Shown piece after piece: positions 18,572-63,739 of a DNA stretch of 64,000 nt. Source of the stretch: Eopsaltria australis (Eukaryota > Chordata > Aves > Passeriformes > Petroicidae). A program made the translations under genes and the position numbers. A model generated the notes under the pieces. It ran no database searches. It worked only from the letters and a program-made list of their open reading frames with translations, and was not told the DNA's origin. Position 1 is the first letter of the stretch. The number at the start of each line of letters is the position of its first letter. The stretch lies in assembly GCA_034509425.1 (NCBI GenBank), contig JAVTVJ010000017.1, positions 62,001 to 126,000 of the forward strand. The letters are read 5' to 3'.

Positions 18572-18933
18572 TTTTTTGGCATATTTAGCAGGATAACATT
18601 CTCTGACCCGAAGTGCCTTTCATAATAGTATTGTCTCCTCTCCCGAAATTCTGCATGCTTTGAAATTTTACTGCAGTTTTTCTCTGGGGGGTTGTGGAGC
18701 TTGACGTCTCACCCGTAGTGGCCTGAACTCTTGGGAATTCTGATGCAGCTTTTTCTGAGGATGTTGTGGAAGCTGCAGTAAACTGATTTGAGGGTTTTAA
18801 TTCCCTTTAGTGTGTTTTGTTGTGTAAATCCAGATTTGGCAGGTTTCAGTCCTGAAGCCAATTCTGCTGCTTGTGTCTTGTGGGGAGGCCCTCCCGTCTG
18901 TAGTTTGTAGTAGAAGCCTCTCCTTGGTGCTTT
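18572..18933 (+). other. P2 leader, with a 35-bp tandem duplication
   Basis: Non-coding leader between LTR and gag. A TGG at 18576 could begin the tRNA primer site, but I could not match it to a tRNA. At about 18929-18996 the phrase TGTGCGGAGCCTAAA(A/G)AACTCC is repeated in tandem; the second copy extends into the gag frame. Confidence 0.6.
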
Positions 18934-20601: not shown

Positions 20602-21042
20602 GTGAGCCGGGGGATGGGCAGTGGAGACACCTTAGAAGGCTCACAGAAAACTTATCTGGGGACATGATGATAACCTTTCCTATAGGTCCCCATAGGACCC
20701 CTGTTACTTTCTTGCTTGACACAGGAGCACAAATATCAGCTTTGCAAACTGATGATGCTGTACGGTGTGGCATTGTGCCTGACAAAAAAGGACTCATAGT
20801 GGCAGATGCATTTGGTAATTTGCAGACAACCTGCTGCCAAAGTAAAATGTTGGCTACCAGGGGAAGTCAGTATCACTGAAACACTGATGGTTATTGGCCC
20901 ATTCCCTGTTAATTTGCTAGGCTTAGACATCTTGAAAGGTAAATCCTGGATTGATGACAGAGGCAGGCAGTGGTCTTTTAGTTCGGATTTCTCATCACTT
21001 CGCCTGTTACAAGCTGCCCCCCCCTGCCTCCTTCAAAGGTAA
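20602..21042 (+). pseudogene. P2 protease
   Basis: A retropepsin that would cleave the viral polyproteins. The catalytic motif LLDTGAQIS is intact in the frame 20664-20879. The C-terminal motif NLLGLDILKGKSW lies in another frame (20806-21042), so there is a frameshift near 20820. Follows gag directly and precedes RT. Confidence 0.85.
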
Positions 21043-23696: not shown

Positions 23697-23801
23697 CCTG
23701 GTTCAAGAGCAAACCGAGTTTATTTTTTCTGATCTTTTACAGGTGGAAATCTAAACTCGAAGGGACGAAGAAGAAACCCTTCGCATGATTTATACCCCAC
23801 T

Positions 23802-26711: not shown

Positions 26712-26766
26712 ACTGAAGATTACTGGGAAAGAGACATTAATTACAATGTTTGAGTCATGGGGTGGC

Positions 26767-27624
26767 TGTCAGAGACTGAAAACAGTTAATGCCTCAAACA
26801 TTGATATAAAGTTTTGATCAGAGAAGCCTCCCTGAGGATACCTGACTGGGACTTTGGACTGAGCTAAACTGCTGAGATTAGATAAAGGGAAAAGCCTATT
26901 GTTCAGTCATCTCAGTCTGAGGGAAAGGAATGCGTCCACAGAGGCTGAAGCCACCAGCTGTACTGAGAATCATTTCTGGCTGAGTTTGGGGTGGGGACAG
27001 AGCACAGCTCACAGAAGCCAAGTTTGCACAGTCTTACCCCCCCAGCTGAAGGGGGGAGGAGGATGGCATAACCTCTGGCCAGAGGCAATATACACTCATC
27101 CTCCAGTACACAAACTGGCCCAGCTGTGGAACCCCCAACCCCACAAGCCACATCCACGGGACTCTCACGTGAAAAGCAGCTGAGGGGGAGTCACAATCCA
27201 TCACAGACCCCCCAAAGTGCTCCCCAGATGCCTTGCACCACAGGAGCACACGTGATGCAAGCAGAGTCTGCTGCTAGAGGCTGCCCCCTCCCCCGGGGGG
27301 ACATGCCTGGACATTTCCACCTGGCCTGAGTGTATATTAAGCCATGGCATTCTGTGCTTTTGGGGGGGACTTCCACCACCGAGACCAGCTGAAGAGGACA
27401 TCAGGACACCAGTGGGGCCCACGGAGTGGTGATACTTCATTGTCCCTGTCCCTCTCTGTCCCCCCATCTTTCTCCCTACTCCCCCTTTTCTCTCTTTTCT
27501 TCTCTCTTTCTCTCTCATATTTACTATCAAATAAAACTCATACTATTGATTGGCATATGGTCTCGTTTGTACCTTAATTCAGGCAGAGGTATTTCTAAAG
27601 AACTTTAATAACTAGATCATAACA
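26767..27624 (+). mobile_element. P2 3' LTR
   Basis: 858 bp, same ends as the 5' LTR. The differences from the 5' LTR cluster in its first 110 bases plus a G-run length change and a few others. Followed by the right duplication GTAGC. Confidence 0.93.
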
Positions 27625-44733: not shown

Positions 44734-45083
44734 TGTGGTATATGTTACAAAATAATTCGTGCTAAAATTAAGATTGCAGCATTTTACTGAAGTTGAGAGA
44801 AAGCACAGATGCCGGAAATAGGTGGTCGCCAAAAATTGTGCATTTCATGGGACTTCCTCCTCTGGCAGAGCTCCAGGATATGTCCACAGATAAGCATTTC
44901 GTGGGACTTCCTCATCTGGCAGAGCTCCAGAATGTATGTTCTACATGTGTATAAACAAGAATATGGATCCAGGATATGGATTCCATGTGTGCGTATAAAA
45001 TAAATGACTTACATCGCCAGAAAGTCATTCCCTCAGCAAAATCGACTACTGATTTCAGGAACCGTGGTCAGACAGGGTGGAAA
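44734..45083 (+). mobile_element. P4 5' LTR, left part (U3)
   Basis: TGTGGTATATGTTACAAAATAATTCG..., matching the 3' LTR at 63082. Contains two copies of a 54-bp U3 repeat. Interrupted after GGTGGAAA by provirus P5; resumes at 53242. Confidence 0.92.
44841..44943 (+). repeat. P4 5' LTR: 54-bp U3 repeat, two copies
   Basis: Units at 44841-44894 and 44895-44943 (second incomplete) share CATTTC(A/G)TGGGACTTCCTC and CTCTGGCAGAGCTCCAG-type phrases. Direct repeats in U3 are commonly enhancers. The 3' LTR has three copies. Confidence 0.9.
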
Positions 45084-45636
45084 TGTGAGAAACAGATATA
45101 CTTTGTTTCTCAAATTTAACTGTTTCTGAGATGGATATCCTTGAGATAAGCAGACATACCCTGTTATTCAATTTTAACAATTTTTGAGACGGATATCCCT
45201 GATAGCAGAGGTCCAGGAAACTTTATTGTCCAGGCCACAAATTCCTGGAAAGTACTTGTGTGGTCATCTCCTAATATGGATATGTAAAGACTGTTACGTA
45301 CAAAGTTCCAAAAAGGACGCTCAAAGAAGAAGAGCAGCCTTCAGCAGCGGCCACCGGGAGGCAGCAAGAGACAGCAAAAGACCCCTCAGCCACAGCCCGC
45401 GCAGGCGCAGAGTACTTCCCGACGACGGAACACCCCGAGAAACACACCGGAAACTGTAACAAATAAAATGAAGGCTGAAAGCTTCCCCCAGTGTGCGCCG
45501 TTGGTAGAGCGGAGACTCCCTGGCCGCCCAGCGCTGCTCTGCTTGCTATCGCTTGCCAAATTTTTATACTTAATAAAACTTGTCTTTATGAATTCACTAA
45601 GTTAGCTTCTGAATTTTGTCCGAGTAATTTATAACA
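45084..45636 (+). mobile_element. P5 5' LTR
   Basis: TGTGAGAAACAG...TTATAACA, 553 bp, with AATAAA at 45572-45577. The 91-codon frame at 45184-45459 recurs in the 3' LTR because the LTRs are duplicates. Confidence 0.95.
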
Positions 45637-45640
45637 ATTT

Positions 45641-45658
45641 TGGTGCCGTGACTCGGAT
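45641..45658 (+). promoter_or_regulatory. P5 primer binding site, tRNA-His type
   Basis: TGGTGCCGTGACTCGGAT, four bases after the LTR, is the 18-mer I associate with tRNA-His priming, as in the HERV-H group. It differs clearly from the P4 site. Confidence 0.88.
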
Positions 45659-45845
45659 CCAAGCTAGGATAGTGCGGAGCTCCCACATCGGGGAGGTGCC
45701 CCGTCTTCTGACGGCCCTAGTGTGGGATATCCCGCTACCCTCAACTGGATCAACGAACCTCCAAATTGATATGCAAGCAGAGGAACACCGGTGACACCTT
45801 AAACTTTGTGCACTAAGAACCGAATGAAGACTCTACAGAGAGTAC

Positions 45846-45851
45846 GTAAGT
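45846..45851 (+). promoter_or_regulatory. P5 candidate major splice donor
   Basis: TAC/GTAAGTAT lies about 200 bases after the LTR and upstream of gag, where a retroviral splice donor for env (and any accessory mRNA) is expected. Confidence 0.5.
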
Positions 45852-46027
45852 ATAGGCCGGTTACCCATTCGGTTGGGGTTGGGTATCTCAGAGTGTGTCT
45901 GAGTGAGACGCTGCTTTTGGGCGAAGTGAGTGTAGACCCTCTAGTAGTGCGGTTCCCTTCTCCCGCGAGGGACAGGGCCACGATCGAGGGGCGGAGAGTG
46001 TGTGTGTGAAAGAAGGCACTCTGGAAG

Positions 46028-47047
46028 ATGGGACAGAAGAAAGGCAAGCCGTCTGTACCCACGGGGGGGGGACCCCCAGAAAGAACTCCCTAGGATATCC
46101 CTAGATAGTCCGCTAGGACTGATGATTGCAAACTGGGATGACTTACCTTTTAGGAAAGGGAAGGACAAAAGAAAAATGATACACTATTGTGTAGAAGTAT
46201 GGGGAGGAAAGCAAATTAGGGCAGATAATTTATTTTGGCCAATTTTCAGCTCATTTGAGGACTGGGTGTTATTAGACCAATTTTTGGGACCCAACATTTA
46301 TACTTGGGATGAATTAACATCGATCCTGAGCATATTATTTTCTAGGGAAGAGAGAGAAATGATTAGACGGACTGGGATGAGGCTCTGGGCACAACAACAT
46401 GCCCAGGGGCCGGCTGCAGATACTAAATGGCCAGCACAGCAGCCTAATTGGAATAATCAGGATGAAAGAGATAGAGACCATATGTCAGATCTAAGAAACA
46501 TGATTGTTCAGGGAATTTGGGAATCTGTTCCCCGGGGTCAGAACATCAGCAAAGCCCTGAATGACTGCCAGAGACAAGATGAAACCCCCACAGACTGGCT
46601 GGAGCGGCTCCGAAAGAGCCTGCAACTATATTCAGGCTTAGATCCCAACACCCCCCTTGGGCAGATAGTCCTGAAGACCCAATTTGTAGCTAAATCTTGG
46701 AATGATATTAGGAAGAAACTAGAAAAAATTGAAGATTGGCAAGAAAAAGAGTTAGAATTATTGAGGGAAGCCCAGAAAATATATGTAAGGAGAGAGGAGG
46801 AAGCTCAAAGGAAGAACACACAAATTCTGGTGACTGCTGTAAGAGAAGGACTAAGATACTCTCAGGGGGATTGTCAGAGAGAGAGAGGCCCTTCACGGGA
46901 AACAGGAAACCTGGCAGCACCAATGCTGAACGAGTAAGAAAAGGGCAGAGAAGGCTTGTGGAATGTTTTTATTGCCACAAATTGGGACATACAAAAAGGG
47001 AGTGCAGGAAGAGAATACAAGATGAGAAGATGTTTAAAGAAGATTAG
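46028..47047 (+). pseudogene. P5 gag, frameshifted
   Basis: Gag forms the viral core. It starts ATG GGA CAG (Gly-2 for myristoylation, gammaretrovirus-like) at 46028. A run of nine G near 46064-46072 sits where the frame is lost, and the main open block (46002-46937) is in another frame. That block holds capsid sequence with an MHR-like segment (MIVQGIWESVPRGQN) and a charged C-terminus. A second shift near 46850 leads to the nucleocapsid with one CCHC knuckle (CFYCHKLGHTKREC) in the frame ending at TAG 47045-47047. Compared with P4, the Pro-rich matrix/p12 portion is missing. Confidence 0.85.
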
Positions 47048-48000
47048 GAGTGTCAGGGGTTGTATTTACTGGGGACATTAAAAACAACAGAGCCCTTGAT
47101 AAAAATAGAAGTTGGTCCTCAGCAACAAGAAATAGAGTTTCTCGTGGACTCTGGAGCAGAAAGATCAACTATTCAAAAACTACCTCAAGGATGCAAAATA
47201 TCCTCAGAAAAAATACAAGTGATTGGAGCAAAGGGAGAGCCCTTCGGGGTCCCCATGATTAAAAATGTACAGTTTGAGACACAATCCAGATTTGGAATTG
47301 GATCATTGCTATTAGTACCCAAGGCAGAATACAATCTATTAGGATGGGATTTAATGGTAGAATTGAACATTAACCTTAAGGAAGAAAAAGATGAAGTAAA
47401 AGTGAAACTGTGCCCACTTACTGTGAAAGATGAGGAAAAGATTAACCCGGAAGTTTGGTATTCCCCAGATACGGTAGGGAGATTAGATATTGAACCCTTT
47501 GAGGTAACTCTCAGAGATCCTGATGTGCCTGTGCAGATTAAACAATGCCCTTTATCACAGGAAGGGAGATGGGGACTGAAACCTGAGGTAGATTAATTAA
47601 AAGAGGATTATTAGAGTCCTGTATGTCACCATTTAACACCCCCACTCTACCTGTAAAGAAACCTGATGGGAGTTACCGACTGGTGCACGATCTAAGGGAA
47701 ATAAACAAGGGAACTGTGTCTAGATTCCCCGTAGTTGCTAATCCCTATACCTTACTGAGTCAATTAAACCCTAGAGATCAATGGTATAGTGTAATTGATC
47801 TCAAGGACGCATTTTGGGCATGTCCTTTAAAGAAAGAATGCCAAGATTATTTTGCTTTTGAATGGGAAGACCCTGAAACACATCGAAAACAACAGCTTAG
47901 GTGAACTTATGCCAGCAGAGTCAAAGGACCAATATCCGACTCTCCGTGGAAAGTAGTTGGTGATCCTGGATCCTTAAAATTCACCTTGCGACAGAATCCA
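47048..48000 (+). pseudogene. P5 protease and truncated pol
   Basis: In the same frame as nucleocapsid after the TAG, as in gammaretroviral readthrough. The retropepsin motif FLVDSGAERS (Asp at about 47147) and flap (VIGAKGEP) are visible; the frame closes at 47594-47596. RT begins in another frame (PVKKPDGSYRLVHDLREIN, VIDLKDAFWACPL) and stops at about 47900. There the sequence jumps to the end of pol (ASRV...DPGSLKFTL). The RT catalytic box, RNase H and integrase core are deleted. Confidence 0.88.
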
Positions 48001-48029
48001 GATGGACTCAAACGTCACAGTAGCAGTAG

Positions 48030-48539
48030 CAGATAAACATTCATTTTATTCACCAAAGTTATTTAAGTAATGCAGATTATAGAGTGAAATGTGTTGACCC
48101 TGACTGTAATTGTTACCCATTTGTTTGTTATATTTGTAAAGTGTGCCGGAAAAAGTGGTGGACTCGTTGCCTTAAGGGAATTCCACCTAGGGGAATTTGT
48201 AAATTGTGCTGAAGCAGAGAGAGAAAGTTAACAATTGAAGTACTCCATCTAGAGGAATCCCTGGGAAAACTACAGCGAGACTCCCGAGAGTGGTGGGAAA
48301 TCTACAATAAGGGAATAAATCCTGAAAAGTTCTGCTATCACCCAAATGAACCAATACCCTTTATAGCAGAACTCACCCAAACACACTGTTGAAAGACCCT
48401 AAAATACTTGCAGTGCTTTGGTCCTCATGTAAAGGATAAAAATTGGGTACAATATATCACCAGGCAATCCCGTAAAAACCTTTCAAAACCTCCTGAAGAC
48501 TACCCCTGCTGCCGAGGAGATGGTACTCCCCATAGTTCG
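48030..48539 (+). pseudogene. P5 accessory Cys8 gene between pol and env (with in-frame stops)
   Basis: One frame reads an eight-cysteine block (codons from 48081 to 48209) with spacing C-x4-C-x-C-x7-C-x2-C-x7-C-x9-C-x2-C, identical to the P4 gene at 60096. A TGA (48210-48212) follows directly; the frame then continues with a Trp/Glu-rich region, a second TGA (48390-48392) and a CC-x2-DG-x-P motif (about 48504) before TAG at 48540. No start codon is obvious upstream in this frame. Function unknown; see the P4 copy. Confidence 0.65.
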
Positions 48540-49197
48540 TAGCAACCGAATTGACGGGCGAGGCAGAGAGATAAGAGACTGTGGAGGAAAACACCTATCC
48601 ACTGGGATCATACCCAAGCCCTGGATAAATTGCCCCAATACCAATTCATCCTTACAGAGCTTGAGGAATCATAATACCAAAAGACATGGGTCTAAGCTGC
48701 TGAGTGACCAAATTGAATGAGGAAAAGTAGTTACACAAATTATGCGACTAAAACCTCAAGAGAGCCCTCCCACTTAATCGGCACACTGTGACCTTTTTGT
48801 ATCTGTTATTACTAGTAGTAACCGTAAGTGGTACACCACAAAATCCACACCAACCTTATAAGTGGTCCTTGATTTAGATAGAGCATAGTGTGGTAATTGC
48901 TACCATTACCACTGCTGGGCCTCTGAGTTTTCAAGCACATTTAAGTTCCCTAATTCGACTGGGAGATGGAGAAACTTATAAAAGACAAGTACAGTACAAA
49001 GCCTTTTATATGTGCCCTAGTTCCAACCAGGGGAAAAGCTATTGCAATTATCCAGGTCATTATTACTGTACTTCTTAGAGTTGTGAATCTTTTGCCTCAA
49101 ATTGGCCAACTTCTGGCGATAAAAATTTAAAAATAAGATGGAGTCCTCCAGGATGTACCCCACCTCGTCATGGATATGACAGCACTGTACAAAGTGG

Positions 49198-49655
49198 TGA
49201 TGCCTGAAGGATTTTTCTGCTTTTCTTCTGAATATTTCTTACACTATTCCCTATATTCACAAGTATTAGCATGCATACTTGTGATGCTTTAGGTGATAAC
49301 TTAGCCCGGTTTCATGGTGTTTAGTAGGCCGGTAGACTAAACACCCCTGAAACCACGTAGAGTTAGAAGACCAAACACCCTGTTTTTGTGGGCCCTCAAG
49401 GTCTCCTAGTAGGACAGATTTTGTAAACTAGAAGTTAGGCCACCCAGGCCCCTTATTGGGCCCTCCTGGTAGATATGCTAATGTGTAGAGTCTTTAATTG
49501 TATACTCGATTGGGGGGGAACAGGGCTTTTGCGACGCGTTCTACCTGGACAGCAGAAGCCATCGAATGGGATCCTATTAAAATACCGAGGTAAGCAACCC
49601 CCAACCCTCTAACCGTGTCTGAGCCTTTATTTCCTAAGACCAGAAAAAGGCATCA
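49198..49655 (+). mobile_element. Solo LTR (458 bp) nested in P5 env
   Basis: Extended inverted ends TGATGCCT...AGGCATCA, the same end type as 27982-28412. Flanking GTGG (49194-49197 and 49656-49659) is the only duplicated target seen; four bases is short for a family whose internal sequence I cannot assign. Env reading resumes at its right edge, which supports the limits. Confidence 0.75.
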
Positions 49656-50095
49656 GTGGTAACCACGAAACCTGTTGAAAGATATACTTAAATGTAACCA
49701 ATCCAACAGATCCAAAATGGCTATTAGGAAAAACATGGAGAATTAGATTTTGAGAACCAGGAACTGACAGGGGTGGATTAATAACAATAAAAAAGGAACC
49801 CATTCCCAACGATCCTTCCCCTGTAGGGCCCAACCTAGTGCTTACACAAGATATTAAGGAATCAACAGACATAGAGCAACCAGCCAGTTATACATATGAG
49901 GAAAATCTTACAAACCTTAATACCCCTATGATCCCAGAAACAGTAAACCCAACGGGACCTGAGAGTAATACTCTTTGGAAACTTATTCAAGCAAGTTACA
50001 GGGCACTTAATGCAACCAACCCGAATTTAACTGAACACTGCTGGCTATGTTATAAAATAAAACCCCCTTTTTATGAAGCTGTAGGAAGAACTGCC

Positions 50096-51662
50096 TGTCT
50101 TGGGTTAGGCCAGAGGGGTCAAAATCTAAGAAGTGATCTGTGCTGCAGGAAGGAATACAACTTCCTTCCTGGGAGAGAGAGCCAATAATCAGGTAGTTTT
50201 AAGGATTGATATGTAAGTGAACTAATTAAAAAGTTGATCCGCTTTCGAGGAAAAAACTATATATAAGCAGAGACTCTCTGAAGTTCTTCTTCTTTGGACC
50301 TGCTGCTGCTGTGTAGAGAGGAGCAGCTCCTGCTTCTCTCGCTGGTAAGGCCCCCCCCCCACCTTCTTCCAAAGGAGGGATGGGGGGGGGAAGGGAGGAA
50401 ATGATTGGAATTTTCAGCAGATCCAGCTCAGCTGGTGTGCCAGCTACATGAGAGAGAGAGCCGGGCTAGGCAAGGACCAAGCTAGACTCTATCCAGCTCG
50501 GGCCAGGCCCTGCCCTGTCACCCCGGGCCCAGATGGCCCTACCAGGCCGAGCCAGCTTGGCAGAGCCAGGCAGAGAGACTCTTGAGAGCGTCTAGCATCC
50601 AGCTCAGACCTGTTCAAGCAGCCCGGCAAAGAGCACTCACACTGCCGGAGAGAGAGAGAGAGAGAGACAGAGATTAACTCTCTCCATGCCTGGACTAAAC
50701 TCACAGACACCCATCCTTCCTCGCAGAGAGAGGAACGAGTGAAGACATCAACATAGTGCAGCGCAGAGACTTTACAGTCAGTGAGGAAAGCAGAACTGAT
50801 ACTTACAATAAGGTGCATGAGAAATGTTTCAAGAGTGAAGCTGAAAACTCTTTTAGAGAACCATGGTTGGGGACTGAGCTAATAAATTCTCTGTAATATA
50901 TGAAGATATAGTCCAAAGGGGGATGTGAGGTTCTTATTGCAGCCAATGAACTGAATTACCTAAGTACAGACAAGTAAGTGTTGAAAAAGTACAGCCTGAT
51001 GAGAAACTAGAACCAAGAGAGAGGAGAGGCTGTGACTCAGAGCCCTGGTCCCGGGGAGAATGCCAGAGAACCTGAGTTGTCAGGAGAACCTGTGCTGCTA
51101 AGCACAGAAGAAAGGATTTTCTTTGTTGCTGCAATTGAACTGGGCATCCTTAAAACAGGTACCCTGTAGACTGTTCATAACCCACCCAAGTGGCTGTGGG
51201 AAGGCTACTGGTGTGGGAGAGATCCACCATTAAGCTAGACTTTGCTCCGGGCGGCGGCTAATGGTGAGGCAGAAGACCCATAAAAACTGTATTTTTCTTA
51301 CAGAAAATCCATGGTGTAAGCAAAAGAAACTTCTCTCCCTAAATGAACTAGAACAAGAGCTGTTTCTGAAGTGGTAAACTGACTAGAGGTCAAAGTGTTG
51401 TCTTTTGTGTGTTGTCAGGGAGAATGAAATGGAGAGGTGGGGGAAGGAGGAGTGGTCTGAAGAGTTTGTTCTGGTTTTTCTTGAGTTTTTTTTCTTTTCC
51501 CTTTGTCTTAAGTATATTAATAAAACTTCTTTGTACTTTATAAAGTTTGAGCCTGCTTTGCCTACTCCTAATCCTCATCTCACAACAAGCAATCAAGTAA
51601 ATTTAAGTAAGTGTGCTAGCATTTTACACACAAACCTGAATAAGAGAACTGAAACCACTACA
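50096..51662 (+). mobile_element. Solo LTR (1567 bp) nested in P5 env; same family as 7228-8584
   Basis: TGTCTTGGGTTAGG...GAAACCACTACA with a perfect 5-bp duplication CTGCC (50091-50095 and 51663-51667). TATATAAG lies near 50260 and AATAAA near 51520. Because P5 LTRs are almost identical, this insertion must be recent. Confidence 0.95.
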
Positions 51663-52684
51663 CTGCCAAACCAAAGAGAATCAATGGTGCAAATCCGGCC
51701 CAGTGTTTGTGGGCAAAAGAAGTAATACCCAAACAAGGTATATCCCTGTCAAAAGTATCTGGAAAAGGAAGGTGTATAGGAAATGTCCCCAAGTCAAAAT
51801 TACACCTGTGTGGGACAATGGTTTCAACAAGAAAACATATTCCCGCAGAATGGTTATTGCCAACAGAAAATGCCAAATGGATTTGTGCCTCCATCGGTGT
51901 TACCCCTTGCTTACACTTAAACTGTTTAATCAAAATGTTGACTATTTTATACAAGTTATAATAATTCCAAGGGTTATGTATCACCCAGAAGAATTTGTAT
52001 ACGAAAACCAAATTACCCCCGAGCACCAGTTGTCCAAATGAGAACCCTTTACAGCTTTAACCATAGCTACACTTGTAGCAATAGGAGCAGCAGGAGTAGG
52101 CACTGGAACCTCTGCCTTAATTCAACAAAACCAAAGACTTAAAGCTCTTAGAACAGCAGTTGATGAAGATTTAGCGCAAATAGAAAAATCCATAAGTGCT
52201 TTAGAGTCATCCTTAAGATCCTTATCAGAAGTGGTGTTACAAAACAGAGGGGGCTTAGACTTGATGTTTTTACAACAAGGAAGATTATGTGCTGCTTTAA
52301 AAGAAGAATGCTGTGTGTATGCTGACCACACCGGGGTGGTCAGGGACACAGTGACTAAACTAAGGGAAGGCTTAGAAAAGTGAAAGAGAGGACGAGAGCA
52401 ACAACAAAGTTGGTATGAGTCCTGGTTTAACTACTCTCCCTAGCTGACCACCCTATTATCCACTATCACAGGACCAGTGATATTATTCATTTTAGGCCTC
52501 ACTTTTAGACCCTTTATTTTTAACAAAATTATATCAATAGTAAAAAGTAAACTAGAGGCAGCTCACTTAATGTTAATAAAAACAAACTATGAGTTAGTCA
52601 ATGATGATCTTGAGCTTATGAATACTACTGAAATGTTATCACAATTTGAGAAACAAAATGTACCATAAAAGAAAAAGGGGGGAT

Positions 52685-53237
52685 TGTGAGAAACAGATAT
52701 ACTTTGTTTCTCAAATTTAACTGTTTCTGAGATGGATATCCTTGAGATAAGCAGTCATACCCTGTTATTCAATTTTAACAATTTTTGAGACGGATATCCC
52801 TGAGAGCAGAGGTCCAGGAAGCTTTATTGTCCAGGCCACAAATTCCTGGAAAGTACTTGTGTGGTCATCTCCTAATATGGATATGTAAAGACTGTTACGT
52901 ACAAAGTTCCAAAAAGGACGCTCAAAGAAGAAGAGCAGCCTTCAGCAGCGGCCACCGGGAGGCAGCAAGAGACAGCAAAAGACCCCTCAGCCACAGCCCG
53001 CGCAGGCGCAGAGTACTTCCCGACGACGGAACACCCCGAGAAACACACCGGAAACTGTAACAAATAAAATGAAGGCTGAAAGCTTCCCCCAGTGTGCGCC
53101 GTTGGTAGAGCGGAGACTCCCTGGCCGCCCAGCGCTGCTCTGCTTGCTATCGCTTGCCAAATTTTTATACTTAATAAAACTTGTCTTTATGAATTCACTA
53201 AGTTAGCTTCTGAATTTTGTCCGAGTAATTTATAACA
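52685..53237 (+). mobile_element. P5 3' LTR
   Basis: 553 bp, preceded by a polypurine tract (AAAGAAAAAGGGGGGAT). Three substitutions seen relative to the 5' LTR. Followed by the GAAA duplication and the rest of the P4 LTR. Confidence 0.95.
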
Positions 53238-53241
53238 GAAA

Positions 53242-53501
53242 GACAGGAAAAAACTACATTGTTGTATTGAAAAGATAAAATTAACAAAGAAGAAAAAAGG
53301 TAAAAGAAGACACCTCATGGAAACCACAGCGGAGAACTGGTGAGATTCGAACCGACAGTGTTTCGGACCCAGTTCACCCCAACGCCGATCGCCTGGCTCG
53401 GCGTTGCTTTTTTTTTTTCTTCATGGCTCTTTTTCAAATTTTATACTTTGATTTTTAATAAATTCTCTTTAATCATAAAATTGGCTGATTCATTTATAAC
53501 A
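53242..53501 (+). mobile_element. P4 5' LTR, right part (end of U3, R, U5)
   Basis: Continues the P4 LTR after the P5 insertion and matches 63486-63739 of the 3' LTR. AATAAA lies near 53457 and the end is ...ATTTATAACA. A strong stem-loop lies at 53380-53406, just before a T run. Confidence 0.92.
53380..53406 (+). promoter_or_regulatory. Stem-loop in P4 5' LTR, upstream of the poly(A) signal
   Basis: CAACGCCGA and TCGGCGTTG form a perfect 9-bp stem around a 9-base loop, followed by a run of T. The 3' LTR copy (63620-63646) keeps the structure with one mismatch. Hairpins near the R/poly(A) region regulate polyadenylation or packaging in several retroviruses; the role here is inferred. Confidence 0.55.
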
Positions 53502-53505
53502 AACT

Positions 53506-53523
53506 TGGTGACTCCGACGTGAT
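53506..53523 (+). promoter_or_regulatory. P4 primer binding site, tRNA-Trp-like
   Basis: TGGTGACTCCGACGTGAT, four bases after the LTR, differs at one base from the tRNA-Trp-type site seen in P3 (TGGTGACCCCGACGTGAT). Confidence 0.75.
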
Positions 53524-53780
53524 CCAAATCTCGGTTCCGCGGTTTCCCCCTCCGATCAGGAGGCGCCCCGCTCATTTAGCGGCCTGACGGCAGGGGAGAG
53601 CCAGCAGAACCAGTTGGATTCCGAACAGCAAATTAAGATAAAAGCCACAAGCAAAAGGGAAAAGAGGAACGAGCTCGGAGCTCCCAAAGACACTTAGAGG
53701 GAACGGCCCTCGGAACTGCGGCGCTTTTTTTTCATTCGTAAAATTCTACGTGCACGGAGATCCACGCAGGAAAAGGGTAT

Positions 53781-53786
53781 GTAAGT
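53781..53786 (+). promoter_or_regulatory. P4 candidate major splice donor
   Basis: GTATGTAAGTCC in the leader, at the same relative place as the P5 site; likely donor for spliced env and accessory transcripts. Confidence 0.45.
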
Positions 53787-54429
53787 CCTGCGGGTTGAAT
53801 GAGGGTGGCTGAGCGTGTGTATGAGACGTGACAATATCACGAAGCGAGAGTGGACCCCAAAAACCTCAGTTCCGGTGTCCCGCGAGGGTCCCGGTCAGTC
53901 ACGCGGGAAGCGAATCTGATGGGAAACTCGTTACACACGTCAAATCCGAAACCTGGGAAAAGTTCGGACTTGAGCCACAGGAAGGCTAGAGGGAAAGGGA
54001 CGTTCTCAGGAACTTGAGAAACTGGTAAGCCCTCTGTGCCTAGGACCGGGAAGGTCCAGGGGAGAGAATAGTAAAGGGAAATAGAAAGGGAGCTTTTACC
54101 AGATAAGAACCACGTGGACGGACCTCCGCTGGTGACTGGAACAGTAATCCAGAAAAATTAATGGAACACGGTGTGAAAAAGCACCATTGAGAGTGGGTTT
54201 GTAAAGGTGTAACTGAGCGAAACGCGGCACAAACCCGGAAAGGAAAGGGAGTCTTGGATAGGCGCATTTCCGGTCTCCCGCGAGGTATCATAGTCCCCGA
54301 AGGAAAACACAATTAAAGGGTCAGGGCGTAACACCTTGAAAAATGGGACAAAGGAAAAGCAAAACCCAGGGGGGGACCCAGGAAAAAACCTTAGGAGAAA
54401 AGGAGAGTAATCTACCAGAAATTCCCTGG

Positions 54430-55102
54430 TGTTATAAATGCATATTATAGTGTTGGCTTTTCGCAAATAATGAATGCTATGTGTATGATGTTGGTCATTG
54501 TAGAAGTTGCTTTTGTTATAGAAATATAATCATTTTTAATGCTTTAATGCCTTTTTGTTTTAGCTTAAATGTAGTGGCTAAATGTGTTAAAATGTACCTA
54601 GCTTAAAATAACTAAACCGCAAACTTCATTGGATAAGCATGGGTGTAACAGGCTCCTGTCCCAGGATATCTCTATCGACAGGGAACCATCTGACAAGATA
54701 TCCCTATTGACAAATAACCGTCTGACTAGACATCCCTATCGACAATAACCATCTGCTGGACACCAACAGACAAAGGAAGAATTGGGAAACTCCAAAGAAA
54801 CTGTGCATGCTCTAAAAAGGCGGACCCAAGGAGGAGCCATGCTAACAAGTACCTGGAAAATGTAAAATAGTTCGGAGAAAAGTTTGAATATGTATACTTG
54901 TCTATGAATATGTAACAGGCTGATGCAATAAGAAATGTATATAAACAGAATATTTTCACCATGTCAGAGGTGCTCTTGGCTCCATGCCAAGAGTTCCCAA
55001 CGTCACCTGGACGTTGTAACCTTTTGCCCTATACCTTGTCCCTTTATTGTCCTTTTATTAAACCTTTAAATTTTAACAGGAGACTGGACCTCGTTTTTAA
55101 CA
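54430..55102 (+). mobile_element. Solo LTR (673 bp) nested in P4 gag
   Basis: TGTTATAAATGC...TTTTTAACA with flanks CCCTGG (54424-54429) and CCCGGG (55103-55108), a 6-bp duplication with one mismatch. TATATAAAC lies near 54938 and ATTAAA near 55057. U3 contains three copies of a ~32-bp repeat. Gag sequence resumes on the right side. Confidence 0.88.
54662..54757 (+). repeat. Three ~32-bp direct repeats in the U3 of the solo LTR
   Basis: Units contain GATATC(T/C)CTAT(C/T)GACA followed by AACC(A/G)TCTG; the third has GACATCC. Lengths vary by one or two bases. Likely enhancer repeats of this LTR. Confidence 0.8.
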
Positions 55103-56607
55103 CCCGGGATAGTCCGCTGGGAATAATGCTGGAATACTGGGAAGGATGTCCGTCAACAGAAGGAAAATCTAAAGAAAAAATGATTCATTATTGCATGGAA
55201 GTTTGGGGGAAGAGAGAAGGAGCCACTTAATTTGGCCCATGTTTGGAACATATGAGCAGTGGACCTGTCGAGCCCTAAATATTTATGTAAATAAAAAAGA
55301 ACAGCGGGACCAAGAGGAGAAGGATTATGCAAAGATGGGGGGGGGAATCGGCAGCTGGGTTATTTACGGTAAAAACCAGGAAAGTAACCAGATCAAAAGG
55401 CGAGGCCTGGGATCCGCTAGACAATCTCCCCCCTCCGTATCTAATGCCTCTGCCTGAGCCCCAGCTGGCACAGGCACTCCCACACGCACTCCCAGTGCTC
55501 CCACCGCCGCTTGAACAAGCACGGATGACCCAGGCCCCGCCCCCGACTGCAGAAGCCGTGGGCTCGGCTGCTCCTGTCGCGGGTGAATATTCCCCCGCCC
55601 CCCCCCCAAGGAGAATGCGAAGTAAAATAAAGGAAAAGATTTGTAATGAAGATAGTGAAAGTGAAGAGGAAAGGAAAAAGGGGCACAACCTTCTCCCGTT
55701 AAGGGAAATACCCACTGCTCCGGGGATTATAGGATATGTAAATGTGCCCATTAATACAGGAGATGTCAGAGCCTTTAAAAAGGAGATGGGAAAATTAATG
55801 GATGATCCCCTGGGGGTATCAGACCGGTTAGACCAATTTCTGGGACCTGGTATATATACCTGGGAAGACATGCATGCAATACTGAGGATCCTATTTAATA
55901 CCGAAGAGAGAGAGATGATCAGACAGGCTGGGATGCATGAGTGGGAATGCAGAAACCCACAAGGTTTGCCCAGAGATCAGAAATGGCCAAACCAAACACC
56001 CGGGTGGAGTGCTCAAACAGAAGAGGGCAGACGAAATATGATAGACTTAAGGAATATTATTATACAAGGGATCTGGGAGGCAGCCCCCAGAGGGCAAAAC
56101 ATTAACAAAGTATTCGGAGAATACTAGGGGAAGGACCAAACCCCCACAGAATGGTTAGAAAGGTTACAAAAAAGCCTGCAGGTTTATTCAGGAATAGACC
56201 CAAATTCTCAAATAGGAGAGGTATTATTAAAAACTCAATTTGTAGCAAAATCATGGGAAGATATACGGAAAAAGCTAGAAAAATTAGAAAATTGGCAAGA
56301 AAGGGGGTTACAAGAATTATTGAAAGAGGCTCAAAAACTGTATGTGAGGAGAGATGAAGAGAAGCAGAGGACTAAAGCGAAAGTTTTGGTTGCAGCCGTT
56401 AGGGAAGTTCAAAAACTGGAATGTCCCCAAAGCCTTGTGGAGTCAGCATATACCCATGGAAACCAAAAAAGGCAACCGGTCCCACAAAGAAAGATAACTG
56501 AGGATAAAAGGGAATCCCCTGAATGCTATTATTGCAAGAAGAAGGGGCATTTGAAAAGTGAGTGCAGAAAAAGAATAAAGGATGAGAAGATTTTTCAAGA
56601 AGACTAG

Positions 56608-59600
56608 GGATGTCAGGGGCTTTTTATTTTAGGGTCCAGGACATCTAAAGAGCCCTTGATAAAATTAAAAATAGGACCCCAAAAGGAGGAAATATCCTTT
56701 CTAGTTGACTCAGGGGCTGAACGTTCCACAGTCCAGAAACTACCAAGAGGGTGCAAACAAAGCAAAGACACAATGATGGTAATAGGGGCTAAAGGGGAAC
56801 CCTTCAAAGTCCCAGTTATCAAAGATGTAGAAATAGAGTCAGAAACAAAAATTTGTTTAGGGAACATGTTGTTAGTTGAAGAAGCAGATTATAATGTTAG
56901 GAAGAGATTTAGTTGTAGCTTTAGGAATAAATCTGGTAGTACAAGGACCAGATTTAGTAGTAAGTATGTATGTATTAACTGAAGAAGATGAGAAGAAGAT
57001 TGATCCCAAAGTCTGGTATACCCAGGAAGAAGCTGGAAGGTTGGAGATGGAACCTATTTCCATTGAAATAGAGAGGCTGGAGGATCCAATTAGAATTAAA
57101 CAGTATCCCATTTCCATGGAAGGAAGGAGGGGATTAAAACCTGTGATAGACAGATTAGTGGAGAGAGGAACTTTGGAACCATGCATGTCAAGGCATAACA
57201 GGCCTATCTTAGCTGTACGGAAAACTGATGGAAGCTTTAGGCTAGTGCAAGACTTAAGAGCTATAAATGAGAGAACAAGAACACGTTTCCCTGTAGTAGC
57301 AAATCCATATACCCTTTTAAACCGAATTTCTCCTAAAGACACCTGGTATAGCGTAATTGACTTGAAAGATGCCTTTTGGACCTGTCCATTGGCTGAAGAG
57401 AGCCGAGATTATTTTGCCTTTCAGTGGGAGGACCCTGAAACGAATAGGAAGCAACAATTTAGGTGGACATCTTTACCACAGGGGTTTGTAGAGGCTCCCC
57501 ATCTGTTTGGGCAAGCACTCGAACAGTTATTAAGTCAGTTTGTGCCAGTAGAAGGCACCAAACTCTTGCAGTATGTTGATGACCTATTAATAGCTGGTCC
57601 AAAGGAAGAAGACGTAAGGGCAAGCACCATAGCATTATTAAATTTCCTAGGGAAAAAGGATTAAAGGTATCAAGATCAAAGTTACAGTTTACGGAGCCAG
57701 AGGTCAAGTATCTAGGACACTGGATCACGAAAGGAAGAAAGAAATTAGACCCCAAAAGAGTAGCTGGAGTGATTGCATTACCCCCTCCGCAGACAAAAAA
57801 GGAAGTTAGGCAGCTATTGGGACTTTTAGGGTATTGTAGACAGTGGATTGAAGGGTATAGTGGGAAGGTGAAGTTCTTATATGAGAAACTAACTACCGAG
57901 AAAATAAAATGGACAGAATAAGACGAAGAAAGATTTAGAGAATTAAAGGAGATGCTTATAGCTGCTCCAGTGTTGAGCCTTCCTGATGTGAAGAGACAGT
58001 TCCAGTTGTTTGTAGATGTTAGTAATCATACTGCCCATGGAGTATTAACACAGGATTGGGCCGGAGCCAAAAAGCCTGTGGGGTATGTGTCAAAACTGTT
58101 AGATCCCGTGAGCCGAGGCTGGCCCACCTGCCTACAAGCAATAGTGGCAGTGGCATTACTAGTAGAAGAAGCTAAGAAGGTCACCTTCAGAGCACCACTG
58201 GTGGTATATACCCCCCATAATGTAAGGAGCATCTTACAACAGAAAGCAGACAAATGGCTCACAGATGCTAGACTCTTGAAGTATGAGGCCATATTGATTC
58301 ATTCTCCTGATTTAGAGTTGCGGACAACTACTGCTCAAAATCCAGCACAATTCCTGTTTGGTGAGGCCCTAGAAGAATATAATCATAACTGTGTAGAGGT
58401 AGTGGAATTGCAGACAAAGATAAGACAGGACTTAGAAGAAGAAGAATTAGAGGATGGGGGAAAATGGTTTGTGGATGGATCAGCTAGGGTTATAGAAGGG
58501 AAAAGAAAATCAGGGTATGCGATAGTAGATGGGAAGTCAGGAAAAGTAGTAGAATCAGGACCCCTAAGTGCTAGTTAGTCACCACAAGCCTGTCAATTAT
58601 ATGCAGTTTTACAAGCACTTAAAAAGCTAAAAGGAAAGAAAGGGACAATTTTTACTGACTCCAAATATGCTTTTGGAATAGTCCACACCTTTGGGAAAAT
58701 TTGGGAAGAAAGAGGTTTAATAAGTACTTGTGGACGAGGGCTAGTTCATGAAGAATTAATAAAACAAATCCTAGAGGCCATTAGAGGACCAGAAGCAATT
58801 TCAGTAGTCCATGTTAAAGGACACCAGGTAGGGATGCAATTCCGAACTCGTGGAAATAATTTAGCCGATATGGAAGCTAAGAAAGCAGCATTATTAGTGA
58901 TAAATATTCCAGAAGTCAGAGGGAATAAGACCCAAGAATACCCCTCACGTCCTTCCTCAAAGGAAATTGAGGGATATAAAAAAATAGGAGGAAAATGGGA
59001 AGAAGGTAAATGGAAATTACCTGACGGAAGAGAATTATTATCCGGAGAGTATACAAGGAAAATTTTAAAGAGGCTTCATCAACAGACCCATTGGGGAGCA
59101 CAGGCACTTGCAGAGCAGTTTTTGAAATTTTTTGGGTGCTAGGGAATTTATGAGTTAGCTAAACAAGAGGTACAAGAGTGCATGATATGTCAAAAAATAA
59201 ACAGAACCAAGTTACGACAAACCCTACTAGGAGGTCGTCCCTTAGCATATCGCCCATTTGAAAGAGTTCAAATAGATTTTACGGAACTACCTAAAGTAGG
59301 AAGGTATAAATACCTGTTAGTAATGGTAGATCAACTAACACATTGGGTAGAAGCCTTTCCTAGTACCAGGGCTACAGCCCAGACAGTGTCAAAGATATTG
59401 TTGGAAGAAATTATACCTCAATACGGTATAATAGACTATATAGATTCAGATCAAGGGACACATTTTATGTCAAAGGTTATTAAGCAATTAGCAGATGCTT
59501 TAGGAATCTGCTGGGAATATCATACCCCGTGGCACCCGCAGAGTTCAGGGCGAGTAGAAAGAATGAACCAAACATTAAAAGCCCAATTGTCAAAATTGAT

Positions 59601-60099
59601 GTTAGAAACTAAAATGTCATGGGTTAAGTGCCTTCCTTTAGCCCTGCTAAACATAAGAACTATGCCCCACTCTGAAAGTGGCCTATCACCCTTTGAAATG
59701 CTTCATGGGATGCCATATGAGCATGGGATGCCAGTGGGACACCCAAAGCTGGATGACAGTCAAGTTCAACCCTATTTGATAACTATAAATAGGAACCTAC
59801 AAGAATTAAGGAAGAAGAGACTAATAATGCAAAGCACCCCTTTGGGGTTCGCCATACATTAGATACAACCAGGAGATAAAGTGTTAATTAAAACCTGGAA
59901 AGAAATCTCACTCACGCCTCACTGGGAAGGTCCTTTCCTTGTGCTTCTAACCACAGACACAGCAATACGAACGGCTGAAAAAGGCTGGACGCACGCTTCC
60001 CGAGTTAAGAAGATTGAACATCAGGAGGAATCACCTGAATGGAAAGTAATTTCCCCTCCAGGAAGTTTGAAGATAAAACTGCACCGACATGCTAAATGA
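56608..60099 (+). pseudogene. P4 protease-RT-RNase H-integrase (pol), nearly full length
   Basis: Joined in frame to gag across TAG (56605-56607). Protease active site FLVDSGAERS (Asp at 56707). A frameshift near 56900 leads to RT with catalytic YVDD (57572-57583); a second near 57660 returns to the first frame. RNase H: FVDGSA, FTDSKYAFG, HVKGHQ. Integrase: HHCC domain (HQQTHWG ... CMIC), then DDE residues (QIDFTEL, SDQGTHF, SSGRVERMN). In-frame stops at 57919, 58576, 59140 and 59860. It ends at TGA 60097-60099, overlapping the next gene by ATGA. Confidence 0.92.
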
Positions 60100-60323
60100 C
60101 TGAAGGAAATAAGATAAGTTGTTCGGTACCAGGATGCGAGTGTTATCCATTTGTTCATTTTAAGTGTAATTATTGTCAAGAAATTTGGGTTACACATTGT
60201 AAGAGGGGATATAAACCAAAAGAACTTTGTACAAGGTGCTTGGAGGAGGAATATGCCTTAACCTCCCATACCTTAGTAGTTGCTACTAACACAGGCATAT
60301 TAGAATTAGACTCTCCAAAGTAG
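60096..60323 (+). CDS. P4 accessory gene between pol and env: Cys8 protein, 75 codons to first stop
   Basis: ATG overlaps the pol stop (ATGA, 60096-60099) and an in-frame TAA lies immediately upstream. The N-terminal 50 residues hold eight Cys with spacing C-x4-C-x-C-x7-C-x2-C-x7-C-x9-C-x2-C and a YPFV segment after the third Cys; the diverged P5 copy has exactly this pattern. Two CxxC pairs suggest a zinc-binding fold. No signal peptide or membrane segment, so probably nuclear or cytosolic. I know no named retroviral protein with this pattern; a regulatory or host-antagonist role is speculation. Confidence 0.7.
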   Translation: MTEGNKISCSVPGCECYPFVHFKCNYCQEIWVTHCKRGYKPKELCTRCLEEEYALTSHTLVVATNTGILELDSPK

Positions 60324-60647
60324 TATCACTTGTTCAAAAAGGGGGTGAGGGGTAAATTATATTCAAAGGCACAGGCCCTAGCAATCGAGTGCCGACGGAC
60401 AAACAAGGTACCCTGTAGTGCCGGTGCAGTCAAACTATCAAGGTGGGACATCTTTAAAAGGAGGTATGTGGCTCGTTCCCATTAGGGGTGCCCTGAAGAA
60501 TACTCCTGCTGCCAAGAAGATGGACTCCCTTGCCACGGGTGGCAACCCCGTGGGCGTAGGCAGAGGCAGAGGAGTACGCCTGTGGGGAATCCTGATGGTC
60601 CTGAGTCTAATAATGGACAAGACGGCCAGTCTGCTCCCTGAAAATCA
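60324..60647 (+). pseudogene. Downstream, same-frame extension of the P4 Cys8 gene
   Basis: After the TAG at 60321 the frame stays open for about 50 codons, meets a second TAG (about 60480), then continues with CC-x2-DG-x-P and an Arg-rich stretch (RGRRQRQRS) to TGA near 60645. P5 has the same CC-x2-DG-x-P motif in the matching frame. So the ancestral protein was probably about 180 residues with a basic C-terminus, overlapping the env signal region in a different frame. Confidence 0.5.
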
Positions 60648-62805
60648 TCTCAGTATTGGGAAGCAGAGCCCAGCCCAAAAATATGAACAGTACTTTGAGA
60701 CCACCCTAACAGAACAGGTGGCTATAGAGACCATGGCATACCAGACCCACTATGACTGCAAAAGTGGCAATGAGATAGGAAGCTGCATACATAATGGCAC
60801 TCAATACAAAACGTGTCAATCAGATGGGAAAATAATCTGCTATGACCCAAAAGCGATTCCTAAGGATGGGAGGTTAAGAACGCAGTCCATAAAAAAGCAT
60901 AAAAAAGTAGTAACTCATGGGTTATACAAACGAGCGGTTAAGCCTGTGATACCCACCTGTTACAAATGTTACCATTCCGTATGGAACAGGAAGAAGATGG
61001 AATCAATATTTTGGGCACATTCCCAAGTCAGTACAATATGCTATGATCACAGCCAATTAAAAATGTGCACTGCGGGTGGGAAAATGTATTGAGTTGGAGA
61101 AAACACAAAATATAACCTACGATTTTCTACTGAGAAGGGCTTACATAGTAATTACCTTAATGATAATGATGAACGAATTTGCTTGGGATATGACAAAATT
61201 TTTTGTTTTGCAAGAGACGAGAAAGGGGTAAATCCAGAGACTAGGATGAAACAAATTGCTCAAGAATTAAAGGAAAAGGATTCAGAAGCAAAGAAGAGAA
61301 GAATAGAGCAAGAAAAATTGAAGACATTAAGTGAACAATATGATCAGTTAGAACAACAGTATAACAATTGGGGTTTACTCTCCTCAAATAAGAATCTTTT
61401 TGTAAACCCAATGGAAGAAATTGCCACAGAATTAGGATTATCCAATTGTTGGATCTGTGGAGGACTTAAATCAGCTGAAAAATGGCCATGGAAAGGTGAG
61501 AGTCTAGCTCCAGAACAACTTCTACAATGGAATCATACTCAAATTTCTAAAACATTAAAACGACCCGAGGGGTGGGTTTTAGATGATCGAATAATTGGAA
61601 CAGTCTGTATCAGCAGGGAAGGAAAAAGATACACTAAAGTAATGGGATATACTCCCTGTATGTCCACTCTAGCAGTGCACTCGAATAATAACTCAAAAGT
61701 TTGGCAACCAGAAAGCCCTGCCGGGTATTGGAGTCGAATCAGGGGAACAGACTGTGAATGGAATGACCAAACTGGGTTATGTTGGCACAGAAGCCCTGGA
61801 GCTAACCCTTACCAAACCTTAAAAGACTTAAAAGATTACTGGGAAAACCCAGAAGCTGTAAATGAACCATGGAAAGCACCTAATGGAATATATTGGATTT
61901 GCGGGGAGAAAGCTTTCAGTGAACTACCCTGCAGGTGGAGAGGATCCTGTACATTAGGCATAATTAGACCCTCCTTCTTTATGCTACCAAGGTCCGAGAG
62001 TAATCTACTAGGAGCACCCCTATATGAGACCCTAGACAGAGAAAAGAGAGAAATGAACCTAGATTTTCCAAAAGCAGGAGGGAATCAAGAATGGGGAGAA
62101 GATGAATGGCCAGCAGAAAGAATAATAGCATACTGTGGCCGAGCAACTTGGGCTCAAGATGGAAGCTGGGGATATAGGACCCCTATTTACCTACTAAATT
62201 GACTAATAAGACTCCAGGCTGTAGTAGAAGTCGTATCAAATCATACCTCTGATGCTCTCGAATTATTAGCAAAACAACATTCCCAAATGCGAGCATTCGT
62301 ATACCAGAACCGAATAGATTTGGACTACTTGTTAGCTGAAGAAGGTGGGGTCTGTGGGAAATTCAATGAATCTGAATGCTGTGTAGAGATAGATGACTAT
62401 GGGGAAACTATCAAAAATCTTGTGGCAAAAATCAGGAAAGTGGCACATGTGCCAGTTCAAAAATGGAATTCCATCCTCCAAGCCTCATGGTGGGACCAAT
62501 TGTTTGAGGGAAGAGCTTGGTGGAAAAAGGTGGGATTTTTCATATTATGTTCTGCGGCTGGATTACTGTTTTTACCTTGTCTAGTACCATGCTTCATCCG
62601 ACTCATCCATTCTGTTGTCCAAAGTATGCAAATACCAGCAATACCTATGGGCCCTGAATTAGCTATGGGAAAACTTGGCCAAGCACCCAAGGTATCTAAG
62701 ATAATGAGGTTAAGAAGAGAGGAAGGAAAAAGTAAAGCTAATGAAGCTTTGACTAGGTTTGAAGCCCACATAAACAGAGGAAAAAATAATCTATACAGCT
62801 CATGA
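60418..62805 (+). pseudogene. P4 env, one frame with two in-frame stops
   Basis: Envelope glycoprotein, readable in one frame throughout, with TGA at 61090 and 62200 as the only breaks seen. It begins near 60418 with a delayed hydrophobic leader (LWGILMVLSLIM); Met at 60520 is an alternative start. The surface part has many Cys and N-glycosylation sites and the CWIC motif (61447-61458). The TM part has an immunosuppressive-like segment and Cys arranged C-x7-CC (from 62353), one residue longer than the usual C-x6-CC, then an anchor ([21 protein letters not shown]). Confidence 0.88.
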
Positions 62806-63081
62806 AGAAATTATGAAACGTATGAAGAACAATCATGGGATGAGTACAAAAATGAATTTTAACAGACAGAGAATGTTTGAAGTTTCAATCAGTATCCTGT
62901 TCAATAAAACTATTGTAGAACTTTAGATAAGAAAGGTTATTCATTTACATAATAAAGTAGAAATGTAATTGCTAATGTCTTATAAATGTAGAAAGATGAA
63001 ATTAAGATTGTGTAATAAGCAAACCTAATCAAACTTACCATAAAAGCACGAATTAATATTTTAATATAAAAGGAGAGGGAT
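62806..63081 (+). other. P4 3' untranslated region with polypurine tract
   Basis: AT-rich non-coding sequence ending in AAAAGGAGAGGGAT just before the 3' LTR, the primer for plus-strand DNA synthesis. Confidence 0.7.
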
Positions 63082-63739
63082 TGTGGTATATGTTACAAAA
63101 TAATTCGTGCTAAAATTAAGATTGCAGCATTTTACTGAAGTTGAGAGAAAGCACAAATGCCGGAAATAGGTGGTCGCCAAAAATTGTACATTTCATGGGA
63201 CTTCCTCATCTGGCATAGCTCCAGGATATGTTCACAGATATACATTTCATGGGATTTCCTCCTCTGGCAGAGCTCCAGGATATGTCCACAGATAAGCATT
63301 TCGTGGGATTTCCTCATCTGGCAGAGCTCCAGGATGTGTGTTCTACATGTGTATAAACAAGAATATGGATCCAGGATATAGATTCCATGTGTGCATATAC
63401 AATAAATAACTTACATTGCCAGGAAGTCATTCCCTCAGCAAAATCGACTACTGATTTCAGGAACTGTCGTCAGACAGGGTGGAAAGACAGGAAAAAACTA
63501 CATTGTTGTATTGAAAAGATAAAATTAACAAAGAAGAAAAAAGGTATAAAAAGAAACCTCATGGAAACCACAGCAGAGAACTAGTGAGGTTCGAACCAAC
63601 AGGGTTTCGGACTCAGTTCACCCCAACGCCGATCGCCTGGCTCAGCGTTGCTTTTTCTTCATGGCTCTTTTTCAAATTTTATACTTTGATTTTTAATAAA
63701 TTCTCTTTAATCATAAAATTGGCTGATTCATTTACAACA
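63082..63739 (+). mobile_element. P4 3' LTR
   Basis: TGTGGTATATG...ATTTACAACA, 658 bp. It carries three copies of the 54-bp U3 repeat against two in the 5' LTR (about 610 bp), plus scattered substitutions, so P4 is clearly older than P5. Contains GGTTCGAACC (63588-63597) upstream of the stem-loop. Confidence 0.93.
63189..63345 (+). repeat. P4 3' LTR: 54-bp U3 repeat, three copies
   Basis: Units at 63189-63242, 63243-63296 and 63297-63345 (last incomplete), each with CATTTC(A/G)TGGGA(C/T)TTCCTC. One unit more than in the 5' LTR. Confidence 0.92.

Follow-up and report, generated by a model that had tools for sequence, protein, structure and literature searches.

MLV-type retroviruses (MLV, murine leukaemia virus) are the textbook simple retroviruses, and the locus described here raises the question of whether a lineage of this type in birds carries an additional gene between pol and env. 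In a stretch of 64,000 nucleotides of the Eopsaltria australis genome (contig JAVTVJ010000017.1, positions 62,001 to 126,000; the window from here on), two endogenous retroviruses (ERVs), P4 and P5, each contain a short frame between pol and env that encodes eight cysteines with the spacing C-x4-C-x-C-x7-C-x2-C-x7-C-x9-C-x2-C (the Cys8 block). We consider it fairly probable that this frame represents a true accessory gene belonging to a gammaretrovirus-like lineage of birds, coding for a two-zinc Cys8 regulator or antagonist that would be translated from the env mRNA by leaky scanning.

Two copies of one frame between pol and env

The initial annotation had reported the identical cysteine spacing, and a six-frame scan of the 64 kb recovered the same two blocks as the only matches in the window, with no third one even at five of eight cysteines. 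From the cysteine frequency, the chance expectation of one such match per window is about 3e-7. It had also been claimed that most other residues of the block differ, and only 17 of 40 are shared (the remaining two frames share 10 of 39 and 9 of 39), with 71 of 120 bases identical. When P4 was given 49 random substitutions in simulation, none of 100,000 copies retained all eight cysteines. The window scan and the simulation together rule out a chance coincidence of cysteines. The parts of the gene and its neighbours in both proviruses are as follows.

60096..60320, plus strand: P4 accessory piece 1, with ATG and Cys8 block
60120..60239, plus strand: P4 Cys8 block (from the spacing scan; homologues in own genome)
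60324..60482, plus strand: P4 accessory piece 2, past an in-frame stop
60486..60638, plus strand: P4 accessory piece 3, with CC-x2-DG-x-P motif and arginine-rich tail, overlapping env
59182..59859, plus strand: P4 integrase core (Pfam rve)
59863..60096, plus strand: P4 integrase C-terminus; pol stop at 60097-60099
60520..61089, plus strand: P4 env, first open piece; ATG inside the accessory gene, +1 frame
48030..48209, plus strand: P5 accessory piece 1, no in-frame ATG; Cys8 block at 48090-48209
48213..48389, plus strand: P5 accessory piece 2
48393..48539, plus strand: P5 accessory piece 3, with CC-x2-DG-x-P; env ATG at 48520, +1 frame
47905..48033, plus strand: P5 integrase C-terminus, fused to the first part of reverse transcriptase (RT); large pol deletion at ~47904

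Homology between P4 and P5 extends outside the block in the same frame. In tblastn comparisons of the separate gene pieces, run with composition correction off and therefore with lenient E-values, the N-terminal piece matched at E=7.6e-15 and the C-terminal pieces at E=3.5e-5 and 5.5e-4. The gene spans first proposed are homologous, but neither is open from end to end: both window copies are broken, each frame having two stops, and the P5 frame starting at 48030 lacks an ATG. Relatives start upstream of this position, and P5 holds that segment in another frame. The CC-x2-DG-x-P motif had been described as kept in the same frame in both proviruses. It does lie in homologous C-terminal pieces, but its D-G is the GATGG of the env start (ATG at 60520 and 48520), so that this part of the motif can be kept for env.

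Copies, relatives and selection

A search of the E. australis genome (1.17 Gb) with the 75-residue P4 piece gave 150 matches scored among 183 candidates, two of them the window's own copies and a few representing two pieces of one copy. This number rules out a quirk of one locus. Sixty of the 150 were read with their flanks (loci labelled L) and were assigned to groups A (P4-like), B, C (5'-deleted B), D, P5-like and E. The exact spacing is intact in 20 of these loci, 13 E copies have eight cysteines with the block opening as C-x4-C-x3-C, and the remaining 27 have lost at least one cysteine or the beginning of the block. Further open copies in related ERVs were found with an E protein as query: at least 23 matches span all 217 residues, and 17 of the 23 (among the matches listed) are stop-free, although several full-length E matches are nearly identical and hence not independent. 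In the E copies on contigs C67, C182, C823, C2359, C4913 and C5516 the gene is matched as two pieces that overlap at the same place, around residue 60, and this common break suggests one frameshift copied many times.

Open relatives exist in protein data, and the complete protein has about 180-220 residues, in which the Cys8 domain is followed by a middle region and then by a tail rich in arginine. From 1269 candidates, a profile built on 13 natural frames retrieved 35 proteins at E<=1, and from 549 candidates a 35-row profile retrieved 33. All homologues with a named organism are birds, namely Zosterops borbonicus, Hirundo rustica, Accipiter gentilis and Melopsittacus undulatus, spanning Passeriformes (the first two), Accipitriformes and Psittaciformes. 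Their records either carry the label "uncharacterized" or "hypothetical" or contain part of the protein joined to a different prediction. Viral contigs yielded no relative with the accessory profiles or with the P4 integrase, and a protein search with two short window pieces gave no match, for which its limits on length (41-131 residues) and its reliance on word matching may be responsible.

The Hirundo and Melopsittacus records examined are accessory pieces fused to other sequence. In Hirundo these are two hypothetical proteins: integrase (Pfam rve) is fused to the accessory C-terminus in P0034, and in P0033 the fused part is, by its look, presumably protease-like; both fusions are consistent with the place of the gene in the provirus. 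In Melopsittacus, centromere protein Q isoform X2 (P0035) has the accessory C-terminal part near its beginning, possibly an exonised ERV piece or an annotation artefact.

A midpoint-rooted tree of the 35 rows separated a P4 type (10 rows, support 1.0) from a P5 type (25 rows, support 0.73). All but one of the 25 P5-type rows carry the segment CYHxNEPxPF, with variants, which the P4 type lacks. Between 31 and 34 rows cover each of the eight cysteines, and 30 to 34 of them retain it; C47, W51, C55 and C68 (P0003 numbering) are invariant in 34 of 34, and in the tail motif RRxRQR each position is kept in 21-25 of 25-26 rows.

Selection was measured as the ratio of nonsynonymous to synonymous substitution rates (dN/dS) in 136 pairs from 17 stop-free frames, two of them (L049 and L052) shortened by a stop, with the env overlap excluded; restricting the set to stop-free frames favours low values slightly. 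Six chosen pairs were tested further. The ratio was 0.11 for E1 vs E2 (95% interval 0.05-0.20; 141 codons), and 0.30 for D vs P5-like (0.14-0.56), and two B vs A pairs gave 0.18 and 0.13; when these four pairs were read in their other frames, the values were 0.76-1.31. A within-A pair gave 0.41 (0.22-0.85) against 0.59-1.63 in its other frames, and in E1 vs D synonymous sites were saturated and the ratio unusable. The initial annotation had inferred past selection from the window pair, and between subfamilies this idea fares well, with ratios of 0.11-0.30, well below 1 and not near it, in the accessory frame only. The frame-specific low dN/dS rules out a neutral open frame, and these comparisons show that the protein was under purifying selection, specific to this frame.

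The protein also evolves at a higher rate than integrase, a tendency of host-facing proteins: the E protein of L057 is 32-34% identical to four A proteins, and the integrases of P4 and E are 62-63% identical. This pace, together with two well-separated protein types around a common cysteine core and a Vpu-like place ahead of env that suggests late expression, fits a protein that counteracts a host restriction or immune factor in the manner of Vif, Vpr, Vpu or Bet. We take this possibility seriously without thinking it probable, as no host target is known and the selection over the whole core is purifying, not diversifying (these being core-wide ratios).

Where the gene overlaps env, the E1 vs E2 comparison gave proportions of nonsynonymous (pN) and synonymous (pS) differences of 0.103 and 0.226 in the accessory frame and of 0.158 and 0.028 in the env frame, so that conservation of the basic tail is stronger in the accessory frame than in that of env. 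This result and the combination of a Cys-rich domain with a conserved RRxRQR tail would suit a trans-activator or RNA-export factor of the Tat, Tax or Rev kind, in which the Cys domain binds a cellular cofactor and the tail binds viral RNA or the DNA of the long terminal repeat (LTR). Such a function is a serious possibility but falls short of being probable: there is no Pfam match above chance to Tat, Tax, Rev or others, the overlap comparison covers just 45-49 codons, and the A vs B frames are alike. For the basic tail overlapping env, as initially described, E1 vs E2 thus favours the accessory frame, but in A vs B the frames are not clearly different.

Start codons, expression and product

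In 47 of the 60 loci the end of integrase was located upstream of the block, at a distance of 200 bases or less. It was not found in the other 13 (L030, L032, L033, L036-L039 and L042-L047), where the sequence points to pol deletions, apparently several different ones, ending at, near or (L043-L047) inside the beginning of the accessory gene. These defective forms seem to have been copied repeatedly. The accessory ATG overlaps the pol stop as ATGA in B and, as noted from the start, in P4 (60096-60099). It stands 7 bases past the pol stop in E copies and about 30 bases before it in P5-like copies.

The context of the accessory ATG has neither a purine at -3 nor a G at +4 in 32 of 37 cases and both in none (the 37 include L044-L046, which are deleted C copies and not true starts, and omit L012, L037 and L047). 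The env ATG has both in all 52 cases located in the 60 loci, with a search pattern that fixed the preceding base, allowed G or A after the ATG and left the -3 base free. Relative to the accessory frame env is at +1 in 46 of the 52 and at the other offset in 5, so that the two are out of frame in 51. This order of a weak first and a strong second AUG suggests leaky scanning on one mRNA. Judging from the sequence, the accessory protein would most likely be made from the singly spliced env mRNA at its first, weak-context AUG, and ribosomes scanning past it would begin translating env at the strong-context AUG that lies within the gene, in a Vpu/Env-like arrangement. A conserved CCAGG ahead of the gene in A, B, D and E resembles a splice acceptor, but it is also a conserved pol codon pair and is missing in P5-like copies, and we place no weight on it.

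We also considered that there is no separate protein, the block being a conserved extension of pol or env, or conserved RNA, open by accident. Some copies are in line with pol behind one TGA, and the C-terminal motif overlaps the env start. Against this stand the selection specific to the accessory frame and the fact that it is out of frame with pol (in L012 and in those B, D, E and P5-like copies for which every frame was read) and with env, as counted above. Within the provirus the frame is distinct from gag, pol and env, with L015, L022 and L028 in line with pol behind a stop, and we regard this explanation as very improbable. Many P4-like copies (L013-L017, L019, L020, L022, L024-L028 and L048) have no in-frame ATG ahead of the Cys block. 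In L015, L022 and L028 the TGA before the accessory frame is followed by CTG, and stop-codon readthrough is possible there.

Several results weigh against a selected accessory protein with its own start. The window pair alone makes a weak case, its cysteines being conserved without clear purifying selection (dN 0.53 and dS 0.92 between the blocks; 11 differences at first, 19 at second and 19 at third codon positions). Ratios were 0.57-0.68 in P5-like vs A pairs, mostly 0.21-0.76 in within-A and within-B pairs, and 0.5-1.6 in nearly identical copies, the last from a handful of changes; high values among close copies are expected if decay came after integration. In the env overlap, A vs B gave pN 0.19-0.23 and pS 0.32-0.37 in the accessory frame and similar values in the env frame (pN 0.20, pS 0.31-0.39). 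In P4-like copies such as L015, L022 and L028 the frame continues that of pol after one TGA and has no ATG, the depletion of AUG between the accessory and env starts is weak, and among the records with a named organism only those of Zosterops (177 residues) and Accipiter (203 residues) span most of the protein.

As for the product, no related family was found above the cut-off in Pfam and PDB; the rows obtained were at noise level (surfactant protein B in PDB at E=0.49, single-member Pfam rows at E 0.01-0.82). As Pfam gave no match above the cut-off and PDB none, we rejected the idea that the frame is a recognised domain of gag, pol or env, and the block is not seen to be a displaced piece of a known env or gag domain. 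Structure models were predicted from two-row alignments, and that of the P5 piece was too poor for a fold search. The AlphaFold2 model of the P4 piece has a block-mean predicted local distance difference test (pLDDT) of 70-84 over the first 50 residues, with a helix at the last C-x2-C; Foldseek found no significant match to it in PDB and viral models, and its fold match to known structures is too weak to count. Treble-clef and PHD-like zinc folds have a helix at such a position. The protein probably binds two zinc ions, which the eight cysteines would hold in an interleaved way (C1, C2, C3, C6 and C4, C5, C7, C8). With its basic tail it would probably act in the infected cell's nucleus or on RNA, either regulating viral expression or counteracting a host factor.

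The gene might alternatively be a captured host gene, as the KIT ligand occupies the same pol-env position in CrocERV29 (available text of PMC4299795). We think this improbable: no cellular homologue was found in Pfam or PDB or where the flanks of the 60 own-genome matches were read, and the named protein matches are uncharacterized bird proteins or predictions holding just a piece.

The proviruses and comparison with known systems

The remaining features of P4 and P5 are listed here.

56876..57661, plus strand: P4 RT-bearing piece (Pfam RVT_1), nearest MLV RT
62287..62802, plus strand: P4 env transmembrane (TM) piece (Pfam TLV_coat)
45084..53237, plus strand: provirus P5; LTRs 45084-45636 and 52685-53237; GAAA duplication
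44734..63739, plus strand: provirus P4; 5' LTR split by P5 into 44734-45083 and 53238-53501
~63082 to 63739, plus strand: P4 3' LTR

Among solved structures the P4 RT is nearest to MLV RT (Moloney MLV RT at E ~1e-52, the next group at ~1e-22). Gag_p30 scored 75.6 bits in P5 and 27.0 in P4, just under the cut-off of 27.4, and TLV_coat env was matched above the cut-off in both. MLV-type RT (in P4), a 4-bp duplication (in P5), Gag p30 and a gamma-type env characterise these proviruses as gammaretrovirus-like (class I) ERVs. With the homologues named above all in birds, the attribution to an avian gammaretrovirus-like lineage made at first is upheld, and the gene content goes beyond the gag, pro, pol and env of a simple gammaretrovirus. 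RT, RNase H and integrase pieces from seven copies match P4 at 41-94% (L073 with integrase only), and the integrase of the accessory-free provirus P3 matches those copies at 33-45% over short stretches, so by sequence the accessory-bearing copies appear to form one pol lineage.

P5 sits within the 5' LTR of P4, with the 4-bp GAAA duplication and the empty site visible in the P4 3' LTR. The LTRs of P5 are 99.5% identical (3 differences in 553 bases) and those of P4 95-96% over their aligned parts; carriers include both old and recent bird-genome retroviruses. P5 has lost most of pol, from beyond the first part of RT up to the end of integrase. L055 shares this junction with it, as well as the position of a stop past the Cys8 block, which indicates that the defective form was itself copied.

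A third provirus (window 17710-27624) has flanking repeats 98.5% identical, an integrase and a gamma-type env TM. Its integrase frame ends at 23693, the next frame runs from 23802 with a signal-like start, and the six-frame scan found no Cys8 block between integrase and env, making it a natural comparison for the accessory-bearing proviruses. About 1.8 kb (window 53510-55327) separates the apparent primer-binding site of P4 from its gag frame; the primer sites look to us like tRNA-Arg (P4) and tRNA-His (P5) types. A further P4-like accessory copy, L023 (C17:127705-127929, opposite strand), lies 1.7 kb past the window end, so near that the proviruses of this region are clustered.

As to novelty, no paper describing such a gene was met among the matches listed in open-licence PubMed Central (PMC), outside which lie most subscription papers, bioRxiv, Repbase and Dfam; within that scope the gene is undescribed. 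Accessory genes are a known kind, and what appears new is the present family and its occurrence in a lineage of gammaretrovirus-like viruses. A conserved and diversified extra gene in an MLV-type bird lineage implies that accessory genes arose there too. A bolder proposal, which we hold to be rather unlikely, is that birds have long been infected by unrecognised complex gammaretrovirus-like viruses with a dedicated Cys8/arginine-rich trans-regulator that in fold and ancestry has no relation to known viral or cellular proteins. The effect of the gene on bird cells becomes a directly testable question, and the gene itself is a marker for tracing the lineage across birds, whose annotations may miss it.

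Our proviruses share MLV-like RT, Gag p30 and TLV_coat env with MLV-type gammaretroviruses, for which the available portions of the literature name no accessory gene between pol and env. CrocERV29 likewise has an extra pol-env frame in a sauropsid ERV, but that frame is a host cytokine gene according to the same part of PMC4299795, whereas here a widely diverged family was found, with no cellular relative. Other bird ERVs have been described, in Ovex1 and in an avian ERV survey (PMC2717909, PMC4272516); the text available for Ovex1 states that it has no obvious accessory open reading frames (PMC2717909), and that for the black swan retrovirus MT138119 describes gag, pol and env and proposes a possible new genus (PMC9001828).

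Among viruses with accessory genes, the lentiviral Tat resembles our protein in having a Cys-rich domain followed by an arginine-rich stretch. The bird protein is about twice as long as Tat, with a different Cys spacing and another place in the genome, and neither Tat homology above chance in Pfam nor the Tat Cys pattern was found. The nearest likeness in layout is with vpu of human immunodeficiency virus 1 (HIV-1). Vpu is a membrane protein and lacks a Cys8 domain, and no Pfam match was found for the bird protein; in both systems a small frame overlaps the start of env and a weak AUG precedes the strong env AUG, on what would, in the bird proviruses, also be a shared mRNA.
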